From Thermoplasmata archaeon (GTDB taxonomy: Archaea > Thermoplasmatota > Thermoplasmata > Thermoplasmatales > Thermoplasmataceae): DNA of 33,686 nucleotides. Below are positions 20,006-32,248 of the stretch, piece after piece (position 1 is the first letter of the stretch; every line of letters begins with the position of its first letter). Position numbers and translations under genes: made by a program. The notes below the pieces were generated by a model. It ran no database searches. It was given only the letters and a program-made list of their open reading frames with translations, and had not been told where the DNA came from. Where the stretch lies: contig JAKAWY010000009.1 of the NCBI GenBank assembly GCA_021816745.1, positions 1-33,686 on the forward strand. Direction: 5' to 3'.

Positions 20006-20014
20006 AAATTTAAG
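20006..20014 (+). promoter_or_regulatory. TATA-like element of the Ehr-type operon
   Basis: AAATTTAAG is centred about 25 nt before G20034, the first base of the structured leader. That is the distance expected if transcription begins at the base of the RNA structure. Confidence 0.45.
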
Positions 20015-20033
20015 AGATACAGTGAATTACGTT

Positions 20034-20107
20034 GTTGAGGGATGACGTTCCCCGAGCCTTTCATTGAGGGGCTGAACTGCTCAACGGAATGAGCTGATAA
20101 CGCCTGT
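20034..20107 (+). promoter_or_regulatory. Structured leader, candidate fluoride (crcB-motif) riboswitch
   Basis: Elements in order are: GG-GATGACGTTC-CC (39-52 past 20000), a 10-nt-loop hairpin like the first crcB hairpin; an extra small hairpin AGCC/GGCT (20055-20073); GAACT; a 5-bp hairpin GCTCA/TGAGC (20079-20094); then TGATAACGCCTG. Loop bases CGTT (20046-20049) can pair with AACG (20099-20102), in the register of the crcB pseudoknot as I remember it. AACTGC before and CTGAT after the second hairpin also match. Differences are a short imperfect first stem, the inserted hairpin and A-C in the outer pseudoknot pair. A competing helix GTTGAG/CTCAAC (20034-20039 with 20080-20085) and a hairpin CGCCTGTC/GATAGGTG (20101-20120) could be the expression platform. 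Confidence 0.55.
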
Positions 20108-20134
20108 CGTATGATAGGTGCTATGGTGAATGTT

Positions 20135-21085
20135 ATGGATCAATATCTGGAAACCCTCTTGATGACGCTAACGCAATTTTTATTTGTTTTACTTGCTGCA
20201 CCATTATTTTCCGGAATTCTCACAAGACTGAAATCCATGGTTGAATCCAGGAAAGGACCGAGCATTTTCCAGCCGTATCGGGATATATGGAAACTACTCC
20301 ACAAAGAAACTGTCTTCCCGAATAATTCAGGCACAATCTTCAGATATGGGCCCTATGCCATAATGGGGATTTATTCATTGATTTCACTGATAGTCCCCAT
20401 CCTTGTTCCTGTCCCCATCTTCTTCACTGCCAGTGCAGATTTCCTTGGTGGGGCAATTCTGTTTTCCCTTGCAGCATTCATAAAACTGGCCGCTGCCCTT
20501 GAATCAGGAAGCAACTTCATGACAATGGGTGCGGTAAGGGCACTTTCATTTAATTTTCTCTCAGAAGGCACACTGATCACTGTGTTTTTTGCAGTATCCC
20601 TCATAACCGGTACAAACAACCCGTATGTAACCAACAGTTTCCTTTCATCAAATCCAATACAGGGAATTTCCCTGGAGCATATTTTCGCCACACTGGCCTT
20701 CCTGATGCTCTTTTTCTATGAAACAGGTAAGCTGCCGCTGGAAAGTTCAGGCCTCATGGAAATGGGGATGATTGAGGAGGGTATGAATTATGAATACAGT
20801 GGTAAGCTTCTTGCCATAAACAGGTGGTCATCCCACATAAAGCAGTACATACTGGGATCGATCCTTCTCAACGTATTCCTGTTTCCGTGGTTCCTGCAAT
20901 CTTCATTCCCATGGTACATTCTGGACATTCCCATTATGTTCCTGAAATGGATGCTGTTGATTTTCATAGTGCTGGTTATTGAAACAAGCCTTGCAAAGAT
21001 GAGGCTATTCAGAATTCAGGATTATCTTGCCACTGCATTTGCATTCTCGATTCTTTTCCTGATATTTGGTGTGGTGGTTGGATGA
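20135..21085 (+). CDS. hyfC: NuoH/HyfC-like membrane subunit of an Ehr-type complex
   Basis: About 316 residues with eight or so membrane helices. The cytoplasmic loop ESRKGPSIFQPYRDIWKLLHKE region is the HyfC/HycD form of the NuoH signature, and later ETGKLPLESSGLMEMGMIEEG followed by NYEYSGKLLAINRW matches the acidic quinone/ion-path loop. This subunit joins the hydrophilic arm to the membrane arm. I use the ATG at 20135 because GGTGA lies 5 nt upstream; in-frame ATGs at 20111 and 20123 are possible but overlap the leader hairpin. It is the first gene of six; its stop overlaps the next start by 4 nt. Confidence 0.88.
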   Translation: MDQYLETLLMTLTQFLFVLLAAPLFSGILTRLKSMVESRKGPSIFQPYRDIWKLLHKETVFPNNSGTIFRYGPYAIMGIYSLISLIVPILVPVPIFFTASADFLGGAILFSLAAFIKLAAALESGSNFMTMGAVRALSFNFLSEGTLITVFFAVSLITGTNNPYVTNSFLSSNPIQGISLEHIFATLAFLMLFFYETGKLPLESSGLMEMGMIEEGMNYEYSGKLLAINRWSSHIKQYILGSILLNVFLFPWFLQSSFPWYILDIPIMFLKWMLLIFIVLVIETSLAKMRLFRIQDYLATAFAFSILFLIFGVVVG

Positions 21086-21732
21086 ATCCGTTTGAAAACG
21101 TAATATTCCTTGCAGCGGCCATGGCCACTGTGGCAGGATTCTATATCCAGGCCCAGGAATTTATCCGTTCCATGATCAGGGGCCAGCTGATTCAGTCAAT
21201 CATCATAGCAGGAATAGTGTTCATTCTGGCCTATCTGGAATCCTCACCAGATCTGGTCATTCTTGGAATCCTGGTTCTTGTACTGAGGGGATATCTTGTT
21301 ACTGCCTTATTGGAAAGACGCATTCCAGGCAATGAGTCCTACGTTTACGAAAAAGGGATAGGTGTTGCATCTCACATCATCATGGATCTTGTTTTCATCA
21401 TACTGGCCACATTTATCGTTTTTTCACTGGTGTTCTCGGGGATTCACTTCAGCATTTCAGGTGGAATTGCAGGAAGCACCATTATTGTATTTCCTTTGGC
21501 AATATTCTTCCAGGGCCTGTTTCTGATTGGTTCCAGGAACACAACATTTTCGCAGATCATGGGTTACGTGGAAGAAGAGAATGCACTGGTTCTCTTTGCA
21601 TTATTCATCATCCCTGTTCCCCTTATTATTGAGACAAGCGTGTTTCTGGATGTTCTCGCACTGGTGGTCATATCATCCATTGTGGTCATGGAGAAATTCT
21701 CACATGAACCCATGGAGGAGCTGAGGGGGTGA
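21082..21732 (+). CDS. hyfE: HyfE-like (NuoK-related) membrane subunit
   Basis: The 216-residue protein has about seven hydrophobic helices. Its charged loop after the third segment (LVLRGYLVTALLERRIP) and overall length match hydrogenase-4 component E, an extended relative of NuoK/MrpC. In such complexes it sits in the membrane arm between the NuoH-like and antiporter-like subunits. The start ATG overlaps the hyfC-like stop (ATGA). No odd features. Confidence 0.82.
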   Translation: MNPFENVIFLAAAMATVAGFYIQAQEFIRSMIRGQLIQSIIIAGIVFILAYLESSPDLVILGILVLVLRGYLVTALLERRIPGNESYVYEKGIGVASHIIMDLVFIILATFIVFSLVFSGIHFSISGGIAGSTIIVFPLAIFFQGLFLIGSRNTTFSQIMGYVEEENALVLFALFIIPVPLIIETSVFLDVLALVVISSIVVMEKFSHEPMEELRG

Positions 21733-21736
21733 TAAA

Positions 21737-23071
21737 ATGCACATAATTCCTTTTATTATAATTGCAACACCCATAATTGCCTCACTTTTCTTCAGGTGGA
21801 ATGTAAAGTCTGTCAGCCTGATCTCAGGATTTATTGAAATGGCACTTTCCACGCTGCTGTATTTCCAGATGCCTTTCCATGGGATATTTTATGTGGATTT
21901 CACTGAGTGGATTTTCCTCATGATGGTATCATCCATCTACACAGTTTCCGTTTTTTACTCCATATATTACATGAAAGACATAGAATCCAGGGGAATTTCA
22001 GAAGAAATGTACTTCGTCCTCATGAACCTTTTTACTGCATCCATGCTCTTTTCTCTGCTGATGAACAACTATGGCTTCATGTGGGTGGGAATAGAGGCCA
22101 CAACCATCAGTTCTGCACTTCTGATAATAGCAGAGAAAAATGATATTTCCCTGGAAGCTGCATGGAGATACATTATTCTGGTATCCGCTGGAGTCACTTT
22201 TGCTTTTATCTCAATTATACTGATCTATTACAACTTCCACACACTGAATGTCTATGACGTCATTCATTCAGGTTCTCAGGGGGGCCTCATAATCAGGGTC
22301 ATAGTTTCCATTGCTCTGGTGGGATTTGGAACCAAGACCGGAGTTTTTCCTGTGCATACCTGGCTTCCGGATGCACACAGCGAGGCACCCCCTCCGGTAA
22401 GTGCAATGTTTTCAGGTGTACTTCTACCTGTGGCCCTTTACGTCCTTTACAGGATATACCAGATAGCTCCCTATCCGCAACTGTACACATGGTTTGCAGT
22501 GATTTCCATCGCTGCCGCTTCCATATTCCTGGCCAACCAGAGGAAGTACAAGAGAATGTTTGCCTATTCCACCATGGAAAACATGAATGTGGCCCTTCTG
22601 GGGTTGGCATTAGGGGGAGTAGGTGTCACAGGGGCATTGCTGGTGCTTGTGACACACAGTTTTGCGAAATCAGCATCCTTCTTCTCTTCTGGAAACATCC
22701 TGAAATCCACCGGAAGCAAGGACATGGATCACGTCAGGGGAATATGGAAAGGGATGCCTTACACTTCCACTGCACTCTTACTGTCATCCTTTGCAGTGAC
22801 AGGGGCCCCTCCCTTTGGTGTATTCATCGGGGAATTCATAATCCTGTACAGACTGGCAACAGTCAACATGATCCAGTTTGCACTGGTGCTGTTCTTCCTT
22901 ATGGCAGCATTCATAGGAATCAACCAGAACGTGACTTCCATGGTATTCAACGGAACCTCTGACCACAAAGAATCAGGCTGGCAAATGCCAGCAATTGCCC
23001 TGGCCTGTGCTGTCATATCGCTATTGCTTGGTATCGTATTCCTTGGAGGTTACTTCAATGCGCTATTATAA
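21737..23071 (+). CDS. hyfF: Antiporter-like membrane subunit (HyfF/NuoN type)
   Basis: The 444-residue protein has about thirteen to fourteen helices of the Mrp-antiporter/NuoL-M-N fold. VGFGTKTGVFPVHTWLPDAH with SEAPPPVSAMFSG is the conserved half-channel loop with its lysine; a glutamate in WVGIEATTISSALLI matches the TM5 acidic residue, and HSFAKSASFFSSGN is the later lysine/histidine helix. It should move H+ or Na+ across the membrane when the hydrophilic arm turns over. A GGGGTGA lies before the ATG. Its 3' end overlaps the next gene by 14 nt. Confidence 0.9.
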   Translation: MHIIPFIIIATPIIASLFFRWNVKSVSLISGFIEMALSTLLYFQMPFHGIFYVDFTEWIFLMMVSSIYTVSVFYSIYYMKDIESRGISEEMYFVLMNLFTASMLFSLLMNNYGFMWVGIEATTISSALLIIAEKNDISLEAAWRYIILVSAGVTFAFISIILIYYNFHTLNVYDVIHSGSQGGLIIRVIVSIALVGFGTKTGVFPVHTWLPDAHSEAPPPVSAMFSGVLLPVALYVLYRIYQIAPYPQLYTWFAVISIAAASIFLANQRKYKRMFAYSTMENMNVALLGLALGGVGVTGALLVLVTHSFAKSASFFSSGNILKSTGSKDMDHVRGIWKGMPYTSTALLLSSFAVTGAPPFGVFIGEFIILYRLATVNMIQFALVLFFLMAAFIGINQNVTSMVFNGTSDHKESGWQMPAIALACAVISLLLGIVFLGGYFNALL

Positions 23072-24224
23072 GGAAGGAAAGCCGAAAGGAAGATTCATAG
23101 GATCCACGGAAAGATATGATATCTATCCTGGAATCTATAGAAAGAAAGAGGAAAGGCAAGAACCTGAACCGCACAGAAAAACAGAGCAGGAATTCGTGTT
23201 TTCCTACGGCCCCGCATCCGGCATGCTTGAATCCTCAGAAATTGATTTTTACACACCAGGAGAGATCATCAATCATGTGGATGTGGATTATGATGTGAGG
23301 ATGAGAAAGATCGGCATAACAGGCCTCACACCGGCAGACGCACTGCTCAGGATAGAAAGAATTAACGGATTCCATGCTGCATCACACGCAATCTGTTTCC
23401 TCAGTGCAGTGGAGGATGCAATGGGGGTAAGTCCACCTGATAACGTGCTTAAAAACAGGATATTGCAAATAGAATCCGAGAGAATCAGGAGCAATCTTCT
23501 GGTGGTGGAGAGAATGGCACAGGCCGCAGGATTCGGGGTTCCAGTGAATCAGTTGTCATTACTCAGGGAAAAGGTTTCAAGGATCATTGGAAAACACTCA
23601 GGCCACAGGTATTTCTACGGATCAAATTCATTGGGTGGAACAGTTTTTGAAATATCCTCGCTTGCTGAAGAGATAGGCGAAGTGTCTGATGAATTCAGGG
23701 ATATTTTCAGGAGCCTCCTTGTTTCAAAACTTTTCATAAACAGGCTCCAGAACAATGGAATAAACATGGAAAGTGACAGCATCGGGCCCGCTGCGAGAGC
23801 TTCAGGAATAATGCATGATGCCAGAATGGATTCCCCTGATCTACCTTATGGTGAACTGGATTTCAAGCCAGTAATCAAAGAAGAATCCGATGCCTTTGGA
23901 AGATTTATGGTAAGATCAATGGAGATAGGGCAGTCATCAGATCTGATTAAAAAAGTAAAAATTTCCAATGATGAATTGTCAGAAAATCAGGTAGGATCAG
24001 TGAATGGGAAGGGAATGGCAAGGATTGAAAGCCCTGCAGGCGATATATTTTATGGTATTGAATTAAAAGACGGGATCATTTCAGCCATTGACCATATATT
24101 CCCGTCAGTGAAAAATCTTGAGAATTTCCGCAAGTCCATGAGGGGAAATATATTCACTGATTTCCACTTCAACTGGGAAAGTTACGGAATTTGGATATCT
24201 GAGCTGGGGGTGGTACTGGAATGA
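23058..24224 (+). CDS. NuoD/HyfG-like large subunit lacking NiFe ligands
   Basis: The 388-residue protein is the 49-kDa/large-subunit homologue. At 100-110 it reads ERINGFHAASH where NiFe hydrogenases have ERICGxCxxxH, so both N-terminal cysteines are gone. The C-terminus ends FHFNWESYGIWISEL in place of DPCxxCxxH. Cys113 is the only cysteine I see. The NuoC-like N-terminal domain of HyfG is also missing; the first 65 residues are a basic, unrelated extension. It cannot hold a NiFe centre and groups with Ehr-like/complex-I-like subunits. Start ATG at 23058 is supported by GGAGG 8 nt upstream; the earlier GTG-type start at 22995 lies inside hyfF. Confidence 0.88.
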   Translation: MRYYKEGKPKGRFIGSTERYDIYPGIYRKKEERQEPEPHRKTEQEFVFSYGPASGMLESSEIDFYTPGEIINHVDVDYDVRMRKIGITGLTPADALLRIERINGFHAASHAICFLSAVEDAMGVSPPDNVLKNRILQIESERIRSNLLVVERMAQAAGFGVPVNQLSLLREKVSRIIGKHSGHRYFYGSNSLGGTVFEISSLAEEIGEVSDEFRDIFRSLLVSKLFINRLQNNGINMESDSIGPAARASGIMHDARMDSPDLPYGELDFKPVIKEESDAFGRFMVRSMEIGQSSDLIKKVKISNDELSENQVGSVNGKGMARIESPAGDIFYGIELKDGIISAIDHIFPSVKNLENFRKSMRGNIFTDFHFNWESYGIWISELGVVLE

Positions 24225-24847
24225 ATATCAATTTCTGGTTCCTCAAGGGAATATTTAAAGGTATAAAGACAGAAAAATTCCCGAAGAAGGCCCCTTTGGA
24301 TATCGCTCCATGGAGCACTGCCCTGGTTGGAAAGGGAAATGTGGATTGCCCAGTGGAGGCCATAAAAGACGGTAAATGGAATTTTGAAAAATGCATCTTC
24401 TGCAGACGATGCCTGCCCGAATATGCTCCAAATGGAGACACGGCAATTTACAAAGTTTCAGGGAATGACAGGACTTTCAAAAAGTCATTCCATCTATTTC
24501 CACTGGATTCTGGTGCCTGCGGTGCATGCAATGTAGAGCTTCACAATATAGCAGCGCCACAATACGACATGACCAGGTTGGGGATATTCTTCACCAACAC
24601 ACCAAGGCATGCGGACGCCATTGTGATAATGGGAGTTTGGACAGAAGGGATGGGAAAGGTACTGGAGAGGGCTCTTGAAGCAATGCCAGGCCCAAAACTG
24701 GTCATAGCCATGGGGGCCTGTGCGATATCAGGTGGAATCATCGGAACCGGTGTAACTGATAAATTCAACGCTGATGTTGTAATTGGTGGCTGCCCACCTA
24801 ATCCATATACTATACTCTCAGCACTCATGAAGGCAAGGGGTGAGTGA
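24221..24847 (+). CDS. NuoB/HyfI-like small subunit fused to a half ferredoxin domain
   Basis: The 208-residue protein has two parts. Residues 40-70 are ferredoxin-like, with CPVEAI at 43-48 and CIFCRRC at 58-64; Cys43, 58, 61 and 64 can ligate one [4Fe-4S] cluster, while the first CxxCxxC of a two-cluster ferredoxin is absent. Residues 95-200 are NuoB/small-subunit: GACGACNVEL (Cys100/103), MGACAISGG (Cys167) and GGCPPNP (Cys191), the four ligands of the proximal N2-type cluster. The fusion could replace a separate NuoI/HyfH electron-input subunit, which is absent here. It overlaps the large-subunit gene by 4 nt (ATGA). Confidence 0.9.
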   Translation: MNINFWFLKGIFKGIKTEKFPKKAPLDIAPWSTALVGKGNVDCPVEAIKDGKWNFEKCIFCRRCLPEYAPNGDTAIYKVSGNDRTFKKSFHLFPLDSGACGACNVELHNIAAPQYDMTRLGIFFTNTPRHADAIVIMGVWTEGMGKVLERALEAMPGPKLVIAMGACAISGGIIGTGVTDKFNADVVIGGCPPNPYTILSALMKARGE

Positions 24848-24850
24848 AAA

Positions 24851-26602
24851 ATGCTTGGATATTATTTCCTTATGCCATTTGCAGTTTCGATTCTTATTTC
24901 TATATTCCACAGGAAAGCAGGATATATTTCTCTGGCAGTTTCATCCATTATCTTTTTTATTTTTGCATTTACAAGCTTCACATATTTGTCATCCTTCATT
25001 GCCATAAGTTCCATGGTGTGGATATTTGCCTCCATATTCTCAATTTCATACGGAAAAAAATATGGCAGATGGCTGGCCCCGTTATTTTCCCTTACCGTTT
25101 TTGGAATGGCCACAATACTGGTTTCCACCACATACATCCAGTTCATCTCAGGATGGGAGGTGATGTCCATGGCAAGCTATGCTATAATTGGCCTGAACAG
25201 GAAGGACTCTTCTCCTCCCTTTATATTCATGGGGTTCTCAGAGCTCAGTACCATATTCATCATAGCAGGTGCTGCCATTTCATTTTCCTTAACCGGTACC
25301 ATAAGCATTGTATCCACAACTTCGATGATACCAATGGTTCTATTCACACTGGGTGCACTGGTGAAGATGGGCATGGTACCATTCATGATAAGCGAATGGC
25401 TCCCGATTGCACATGGGAATGCACCTGCCAATGCCTCAGCCATATTGAGCGGAACCATGACACTGATGGGAGTCTATTTTATTGTACGGATGATGTTCTT
25501 AAGCCCGTTGAATCCTGTATTTGGAATCATACTGATCACCATTGGTGTGATATCAGTGATTTTTGCATCCCTTTTTGCATATGTTTCAGATTCTCCCAAG
25601 ATGCTGGCCGGTTTCAGCACTGTGGAGAACAATGGTGCCATACTGGCTGCCATTGGATTTTACATGATTGCAGACACACCATTACTCATGGAATTCGCAC
25701 TGGCTACCATTGTGATCTTTGCCCTTTCACATTCCCTTTCAAAATCACTGATTTTTGCCGGAATTGGAGCATCTGGAATGGAATCTTTCCATGGAACAGA
25801 ATCCAGTGGTGATCCCATGCTGAAGGCTGGAATGTTTATGGGGACCGCATCTTTATCCGGACTTTTTCCCACCATAGGGGGCCTGGGCACATGGATGATC
25901 CTTGAAATGTTTTTCATGGGTGCCCTGGAGCCCGGATTCTATGGCATCGTTTCCATAGCTGCGGGTTCAGCCATGGCATTGGGAGAGGGATTTGCCGCTG
26001 CAGCCATGATGAAGGTGCTGAAATTCACTTCCATGGGTAAAATGAAAGATGGAATTGATCCCATGGAGAAACGTACCGTCTATTATATGGGGGTAATACT
26101 GGTGGCCCTTTTTGCAGCATCACCTTTCTTCATCTACAGTAACCTTATTGGAGGCATACCTTCAGTTCTGGTATTCAATGGTTTCACCATACAGTCCATG
26201 TACTCCAGCACTGATTTCGGCCTTATTTCCCCCGATTATGTGTTGTCCATACTGGTTTCCTTCTTCCTGGTCTGGATTATAGTGTTTGGAAGGCCTAAAG
26301 GCAGGATTGTGCCCACATGGAACAACGGGAGGGAGAGTTTTGAGCCGTACAATTCCTATGCATATTCCAACAACATCCGGTTAATGCTAAGAAAAATTCT
26401 CAGGACCGATACCGGCCACATGAGCCAGAGAATTGCCATGGCGGATGTGTTCTGGATATTCACCTTAAGGGTGACAGGGATGTACAAAAAGATTGCAAAG
26501 TTTTTCACTTTGGGGATAATGAACAGTTCCATACGCTGGTACATGGTTTATATGATTGTGGCCTTCGTATTCGTACTGCTTTTCGCAAAATACATGGGAT
26601 AA
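24851..26602 (+). CDS. hyfB: Large antiporter-like membrane subunit (HyfB/NuoL type)
   Basis: The 583-residue protein has about sixteen hydrophobic segments. FISGWEVMSMASYAIIGLNR carries the TM5 glutamate, MVPFMISEWLPIAHGNAPANASAI is the first half-channel motif with its lysine upstream, and LSHSLSKSLIFAGIG the second. A long C-terminal extension after the fourteenth helix ends in two extra helices, a HyfB/NuoL-like feature. It is the distal ion pump of the complex. GGGGTGAG lies 5 nt before the ATG. It is the last gene of the operon; there is a 3-nt gap to the previous gene. Confidence 0.9.
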   Translation: MLGYYFLMPFAVSILISIFHRKAGYISLAVSSIIFFIFAFTSFTYLSSFIAISSMVWIFASIFSISYGKKYGRWLAPLFSLTVFGMATILVSTTYIQFISGWEVMSMASYAIIGLNRKDSSPPFIFMGFSELSTIFIIAGAAISFSLTGTISIVSTTSMIPMVLFTLGALVKMGMVPFMISEWLPIAHGNAPANASAILSGTMTLMGVYFIVRMMFLSPLNPVFGIILITIGVISVIFASLFAYVSDSPKMLAGFSTVENNGAILAAIGFYMIADTPLLMEFALATIVIFALSHSLSKSLIFAGIGASGMESFHGTESSGDPMLKAGMFMGTASLSGLFPTIGGLGTWMILEMFFMGALEPGFYGIVSIAAGSAMALGEGFAAAAMMKVLKFTSMGKMKDGIDPMEKRTVYYMGVILVALFAASPFFIYSNLIGGIPSVLVFNGFTIQSMYSSTDFGLISPDYVLSILVSFFLVWIIVFGRPKGRIVPTWNNGRESFEPYNSYAYSNNIRLMLRKILRTDTGHMSQRIAMADVFWIFTLRVTGMYKKIAKFFTLGIMNSSIRWYMVYMIVAFVFVLLFAKYMG

Positions 26603-31476: not shown

Positions 31477-32248
31477 TGATAACCCGGCAATACACATAGC
31501 ACTTGTGGAACCTGAAGTTCAGGGAAACATAGGTGCCATTGCCAGGGTAATGAAAAACACCAGTTTTTTTAATCTTGACATTGTGGGTACATCATTTCTT
31601 GATGATGATGCCTACTCAAGAGCCATGGAAGCCAAACCCATACTGGATTCCGCACAATTTTTTCAAAGCATTGAAGATCTGAGGAAAAATTTTGATCTCC
31701 TGATAGCCACATCCTCTGTTCCCTCTTCTAATTTAAAGGATTACAGAAGGCTTCCCATTGAGCCGGAAAAATTCTGGAAGGAGCATTACAATCCCTCCAT
31801 GAGTACATGCATTGTTCTTGGAAGGGAGGGCGATGGACTCAGGAACAGCGAGCTCTCCTTATGTGATTTTTTCATTACCATACCAGGTAACCCTGAATAT
31901 CCGGTCTACAATATTTCACATGCAGCAGCCATCATCATGTACCAGTCCTTGAACCTAAGCCATGAAGCATTTCCGCAAAAAGCCAGGGCCAGTGGAAAAG
32001 AACTATCTATCCTGGTGGGAAGATTCATGGAAATCCTGGAAAAAGTCAACTTTTCAAAGCATAAGAGGCCCGCAACTGAGGTGATGCTGCGGAAACTGTT
32101 TGTCCGATCAGGCCTGCAGAAGTCTGAGTTTGTGAGGATTATGGGGATGTTGAGAAAGATCGACCTCGGAACCGCAGCACTGAAAGATGAAACCAAAAGA
32201 AAACGGGGAGAAGAAAATGAAGTGCATATCAGTAAAAAACCTTATTAA
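31469..32248 (+). CDS. trmJ: SPOUT-family RNA 2'-O-methyltransferase, TrmJ-like
   Basis: The 259-residue protein shows SpoU motifs: EPEVQGNIGAIARVMKN (motif 1), VLGREGDGLRNSEL (motif 2, with the catalytic Arg upstream in the first motif) and IPGNPEYPVYNISHAAAI (motif 3), which form the knotted SAM site. The C-terminal helical part (about 170-250) matches TrmJ/TrMet(Xm32), which methylates the ribose of tRNA position 32. The start ATG at 31469 lies inside the end of the FKBP gene with AGCAGG upstream; earlier in-frame starts would overlap FKBP by about 100 nt. tRNA target is a family inference. Confidence 0.85.
   Translation: MSSDNPAIHIALVEPEVQGNIGAIARVMKNTSFFNLDIVGTSFLDDDAYSRAMEAKPILDSAQFFQSIEDLRKNFDLLIATSSVPSSNLKDYRRLPIEPEKFWKEHYNPSMSTCIVLGREGDGLRNSELSLCDFFITIPGNPEYPVYNISHAAAIIMYQSLNLSHEAFPQKARASGKELSILVGRFMEILEKVNFSKHKRPATEVMLRKLFVRSGLQKSEFVRIMGMLRKIDLGTAALKDETKRKRGEENEVHISKKPY

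Follow-up and report, generated by a model that had tools for sequence, protein, structure and literature searches.

The window analysed here, a 33,686-nt stretch of DNA from a Thermoplasmata archaeon, raises the question of what a putative fluoride-responsive RNA might be doing in front of a complex-I-like operon. A first-pass annotation had placed a crcB-motif RNA at 20034-20120, in the leader of a complex-I/Hyd-4-like operon. The targets reported for the crcB motif in 2010 already included MutS and formate hydrogenlyase (Weinberg et al. 2010, PMC2864571), and the window aptamer precedes an FHL/Hyd-4-like operon, a member of this second target class. Complexes annotated as formate hydrogenlyase have long been an odd target for a fluoride riboswitch. 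Our main reading, to which we give a probability of about 0.85, is that a fluoride riboswitch (crcB motif) controls the translation of a nickel-less, antiporter-bearing, complex-I-like Ehr operon.

The aptamer and its additional hairpin

A search of the window leader at Rfam gathering thresholds returned no match. With relaxed thresholds, the top match was RF01734 (Fluoride) at 20029-20113 of the forward strand (30.2 bits, E 1.3e-6 in the 401 nt searched with cmscan), in agreement with the motif originally proposed, whose elements are present as they were given. The alignment spans the whole model (positions 1-64) with an 18-nt insertion, and its score stands under the curated cut-off, the gathering score of RF01734 being 34. 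This shortfall is probably due to the insert, which sits between P1 and P2 and is treated by Rfam's model as an insertion. When the 1.3-Mb assembly was searched whole, the same match was recovered (E 9.8e-7), by far the best and the sole credible one. The other match of the window, which scored 17.1 bits at 31537-31621, lies inside an RNA-methyltransferase-like reading frame and was taken as chance.

The elements of the aptamer all lie on the forward strand. P1 (20039-20052) pairs GGG at 20039-41 with CCC at 20050-52 and closes the 8-nt loop AUGACGUU (20042-49), which carries the conserved AUG of fluoride riboswitches; the loop had been described as 10 nt long, with the last P1 pair counted in. 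GAACT (20074-78) precedes P2 (20079-20094), in which GCUCA at 20079-83 pairs with UGAGC at 20090-94, as given by the RF01734 alignment and by covariation. Directly 3' of P2 stands TGATAACGCC (20095-104), and the conserved CUGAU that follows this helix is present in GAGCUGAUAACGCCU (20091-105). The P3 pseudoknot (20044-20104) joins GACGUU (20044-49) to AACGCC (20099-104) and shows covariation over its six pairs. In the window it contains one A-C mismatch (20045/20103), common to the nearest relatives, and both sets of site nucleotides, AUG and UGAU, are preserved.

Covariation was analysed in 42 distinct aptamer cores set in a common frame, from which the variable joint and the P2 loop were cut out. 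P1, P2 and P3 together were paired in 95.7% of cells, with both-side changes in 12 of the 14 pairs, in a set in which the P2 5' arm was partly picked by fit and P3 was not fitted. The covariation score was 0.645, compared with a shuffled mean of 0.228 (0 of 500 shuffles reached the observed value) and with slid controls of at most 0.132. For P1, 98.2% of cells were paired; for P3, the figure was 98.0%, and five of its six pairs had compensatory changes on both sides. Across related leaders, covariation is thus seen both in the pseudoknot and in the GCTCA/TGAGC helix (P2). Neither of the two sequence-level outcomes that the first-pass annotation had named as refuting it, no covariance-model match at relaxed thresholds and no covariation in these helices, was therefore observed.

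The joint between P1 and P2 contains a hairpin, named P1.1 here, at 20055-20073 of the forward strand (stem 20055-62/20066-73, AGCCUUUC/GAGGGGCU). Of 31 leaders, mostly ones with long P1-P2 joints, 23 had a stem, 4 bp or longer, that directly abuts the xAAC joint on its 5' side, compared with a mean of 7.6 and a maximum of 13 for shuffled joints. These stems vary widely (AGCC/GGCU, AACU/AGUU, GGGGG/CCCCC, GCCGG/CCGGC, GUGGGCC/GGCCCAC). The inserted hairpin of the first-pass annotation is therefore real and recurs in relatives with compensatory changes; as judged across these leaders, P1.1 is a recurrent element, not one private to the window genome. Two mutually exclusive helices sharing CTCA had also been proposed. 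The second of these, UUGAG (20064-68) with CUCAA (20080-84), can be formed on paper, but neither the predicted folds nor the closest relatives contain it, and we rejected it. The real competition is between P3 and a hairpin over the Shine-Dalgarno (SD) sequence, described below. By sequence and covariation, then, the leader very probably carries a genuine fluoride riboswitch, in a variant form that has one hairpin more.

The operon and its missing nickel site

Six genes follow 3' of the aptamer on the same strand, in the order NuoH-HyfE-HyfF-NuoD-NuoB-HyfB. The first encodes a NuoH/HyfC-like membrane subunit (20111-21085; PF00146, E 5.9e-27); its ORF opens at 20111 and its likely start is GTG at 20126 or ATG at 20135, with ATG at 20123 also in frame, the N-terminus having been judged by homologues. 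Then come a HyfE-like membrane subunit (21082-21732; NF008556, E 4.9e-7, under the curated cut-off, syntenic across relatives), a HyfF-like antiporter-type subunit (21737-23071; NF005042, 556 bits, cut-off 437), a NuoD/HyfG-like large subunit without nickel ligands (ORF 22995-24224, likely start ATG 23058; PF00346, E 1.4e-18), a NuoB-like small subunit with the cluster cysteines and an N-terminal Cys-rich part in its sequence (24221-24847; PF01058, E 2.2e-22) and a HyfB-like antiporter-type subunit (24851-26602; NF005046, 613 bits, cut-off 460). These family matches and the NuoH-like first gene support the earlier description of the operon as complex-I/Hyd-4-like. The nearest PDB relatives of the large subunit are Mbh 6cfw_L and FHL 7z0s_E.

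The nickel ligands of L1 (RxCGxC) and L2 (DPCxxC) are absent at the aligned columns from the window large subunit and from all homologues compared. IERINGFHAASH and GNIFTDFHFNWESYGIWI stand in place of the L1 and L2 CxxC motifs, with ERINGFH and TDFHFNWESYG occupying the aligned positions instead of the nickel cysteines; all four nickel-binding cysteines are missing, within the order and in the homologues compared outside it. One locus (L186) has a stray RxCGxC match elsewhere in the protein, not at the nickel site. Ehr complexes have been defined by group-4-hydrogenase-like and antiporter-like subunits without Ni/Fe-coordinating residues (PMC6349859). Since the nickel ligands are missing and hydrogenase-like and antiporter-like subunits are present, the predicted product of the target operon is, by this definition, an Ehr-type complex and not a hydrogenase. 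The association of the crcB motif with formate-hydrogenlyase-like genes, which the first-pass annotation had mentioned, stands in PMC2864571; the operon found here, however, encodes no hydrogenase.

Linkage of aptamer and operon across archaea

In the 117 genomes of the same order, an RF01734 match at E <= 0.1 was found in 97 and one over the curated cut-off in 62. The downstream sequence was inspected for about 110 of these order-wide matches, and among them the commonest target was a NuoH-like first gene followed by the window's gene order, its start usually within ~40 nt of the aptamer. Of the inspected matches over the cut-off, most stand immediately 5' of this NuoH-like gene. To sample breadth, we took 80 NuoH-like loci, the closest ones found in named genomes; among these are Ferroplasma acidarmanus, Acidiplasma aeolicum and E-plasma and, from beyond the order, Sulfolobales, Metallosphaera, Marsarchaeota, Nitrososphaerota/Thaumarchaeota, Archaeoglobaceae, a Thermococcus MAG and two Micrarchaeota-labelled MAGs. 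Of the genomes in this sample, 29 were checked for RF01734, and 27 had a match at E <= 0.01. An independent pattern scan (P1, P3 and UGAU) placed the motif no more than ~160 nt 5' of NuoH or HyfF at 71 of the 79 scorable loci; it matched 86 times elsewhere in 1.63 Mb, counting both strands, so that only a few of the 71 would be expected by chance. In the HyfF-first, permuted operons of Metallosphaera yellowstonensis, M. javensis and one Marsarchaeota MAG, the aptamer stands before HyfF. Since it is found at the operon head even when the genes are permuted, the RNA tracks the operon and not one particular gene.

Some of these genomes deserve separate mention. In the two Micrarchaeota-labelled MAGs (L140 and L141), the Ehr operon is Thermoplasmatales-like and has the aptamer, which scores 58.2 bits in L140; this is a case of either transfer or misbinning. 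A second, paralogous nickel-less operon without aptamer (L172, L174) occurs in genomes that have another with it (L162, L164); in E-plasma, the L172 operon lacks the aptamer and L162, in the same genome, has it. In the literature available for searching, no report was found of a fluoride riboswitch in Thermoplasmatales or Thermococcus kodakarensis, nor of one linked with archaeal hydrogenases.

The other targets in the order were MutS-domain-V proteins (~500 aa), small coiled-coil-like pairs and one CrcB. Aptamer-headed MutS-domain-V genes occur at L043, L052, L074 and further loci, and in one MAG each of Marsarchaeota and Thaumarchaeota (L153:7899-10927 and L155:784-3743) the Ehr operon has as its neighbour a tandem MutS-domain-V pair, which carries an aptamer of its own. 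In several taxonomic families of the order (L019, L021, L022, L024, L017, L100, L104, L111 and others), the aptamer stands before two paired small genes whose products, of up to ~130 aa, look coiled-coil; these gave no confident family match. As to known and possible fluoride exporters, CrcB/Fluc is encoded in only 3 of the 117 genomes of the order. A single CLC occurs in 88 of the 117 (~600 aa in four examples), and no CLC under a riboswitch was seen among the loci inspected.

Probable translational control and rival explanations

The TATA element noted upstream is present as the TATA-like TTTAAGAG at 20009-20016 (forward strand). In most good-match leaders a TATA-like 8-mer lies 27-36 nt 5' of P1, and across 65 leaders the A+T content peaks at 0.81-0.86 at this position. 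The spacing places the transcript start at about P1, and the leader would therefore consist essentially of the aptamer and a short platform. In this platform, a competing anti-SD hairpin (20101-20120, forward strand) pairs CGCCUGUC (20101-08) with GAUAGGUG (20113-20). Its 8 bp take four of the six 3' P3 bases and bury the SD AGGUG (20116-20120), which is equally placed in relatives; a second SD-like sequence, GGUGA, is found at 20125-29. The hairpin is the minimum-energy fold with and without P1 and P2 forced, and in the folding model the unpaired probability of the SD is ~0 undocked, versus 0.19-0.89 with the P3 strands withheld. The window's P3-to-SD region has a z of -2.62 against dinucleotide shuffles, and the SD-sequestering hairpin of the first-pass annotation is thus real.

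The same region of 55 non-redundant leaders had a mean z of -1.2 against dinucleotide shuffles, 17 of them falling under -2, and none of 200 shuffled sets had a mean duplex energy of the P3 strand with the spacer as strong as the observed one. A spacer-swap test for P3-SD co-evolution was not significant, 54 of 500 swaps being at least as good as the leaders' own pairing; the complementarity is therefore partly generic to GGUG-type SDs, and we claim no P3-SD covariation. In a simple docking model, SD opening gained more than 0.2 in only 16 of 44 leaders. Striking long stems, running from the P3 strand through to the SD or start codon, were seen in L065, L151 and L153.

We propose the following mechanism. 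Transcription would begin a few bases 5' of P1. In the absence of fluoride, GAUAGGUG would be paired with CGCCU, the 3' P3 strand, and with the nucleotides that follow this strand, and AGGUG would be hidden. With Mg2+ and fluoride, P3 would dock, the pseudoknot would hold the 3' strand, the hairpin would open and translation would start. The Ehr complex would then be made when fluoride accumulates, as expected in an acid-loving cell taking up HF. Here we infer fluoride binding and the direction of switching from the sequence; translational ON control is likely for the window and may be common in the group.

One alternative is that the fluoride riboswitch acts on transcription, docking altering elongation or termination and not SD access. 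Bacterial crcB RNAs often overlap terminators (PMC2864571), and a short leader with co-transcriptional folding would permit such control. The window has no U-run after the hairpin, however, the competing hairpin ends on the SD, and in most leaders the start codon lies ~14-30 nt past the aptamer, so we regard transcriptional control as unlikely. Decidedly more improbable is a decayed crcB-like aptamer that has lost fluoride binding or binds another ligand. The sub-threshold score and the A-C mismatch in P3 would fit decay, yet the window's two closest relatives share this mismatch and score 39.6 and 36.5 bits, and the intact site nucleotides and the order-wide conservation also speak against it. 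That the leader is a chance cluster of hairpins with no regulatory role, as its score under the curated cut-off might suggest, is next to impossible given an E of ~1e-6 in its own genome, the synteny in 71 of 79 operons and the covariation.

Translational control of the Ehr operon by fluoride thus remains our preferred reading. A review emphasises that the cytoplasm is acidified when HF enters and that fluoride riboswitches commonly target Na+/H+ antiporters (PMC11139923). By analogy, an ion-translocating Ehr complex would fit an antiporter-like role against HF acidification, and its benefit would probably be restored proton balance or electron flow. A bolder idea, which we hold only tentatively, is that the nickel-less Ehr could be the main fluoride-response machine of Fluc-less acidophilic archaea, electron transfer driving the export of fluoride or of HF-borne protons. 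If this idea is true, the near-universal fluoride riboswitch would be the first firm clue to the purpose of Ehr complexes. A switch on nearly every close archaeal version, in several phyla and despite changes of gene order, would tie them to fluoride or HF stress. The near-absence of Fluc (CrcB) from the order gives this added weight, and the link is approachable in culturable Ferroplasma acidarmanus, Acidiplasma aeolicum or Metallosphaera.

Both the RNA class and its broad association with formate hydrogenlyase were already published in 2010 (PMC2864571); what we add is the order-wide evidence, a measure of how strong and how widespread the linkage is, the new identification of the target as Ehr, the extra hairpin relative to Rfam's model and the inferred platform. 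Like the known crcB motif (RF01734), the window RNA has P1, the 8-nt AUG loop, P2, UGAU and the P3 pseudoknot in order, it occupies a 5' UTR, and targets annotated as formate hydrogenlyase have been reported before (PMC2864571; PMC11139923). It differs in the extra hairpin between P1 and P2, in the score below gathering of the window leader, in an apparently translational, not terminator, platform and in a target without a hydrogenase active site. With formate hydrogenlyase/hydrogenase-4 (HyfB, E, F) and archaeal Mbh, the operon shares subunit homology, including equivalog matches for HyfF and HyfB, whereas its large subunit lacks any CxxC nickel ligand and, unlike in formate hydrogenlyase, no formate dehydrogenase gene is found among its six genes. 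With Ehr complexes it shares hydrogenase-like and antiporter-like subunits and the lack of Ni ligands; the difference is that a fluoride riboswitch heads nearly all close archaeal relatives of the window operon.
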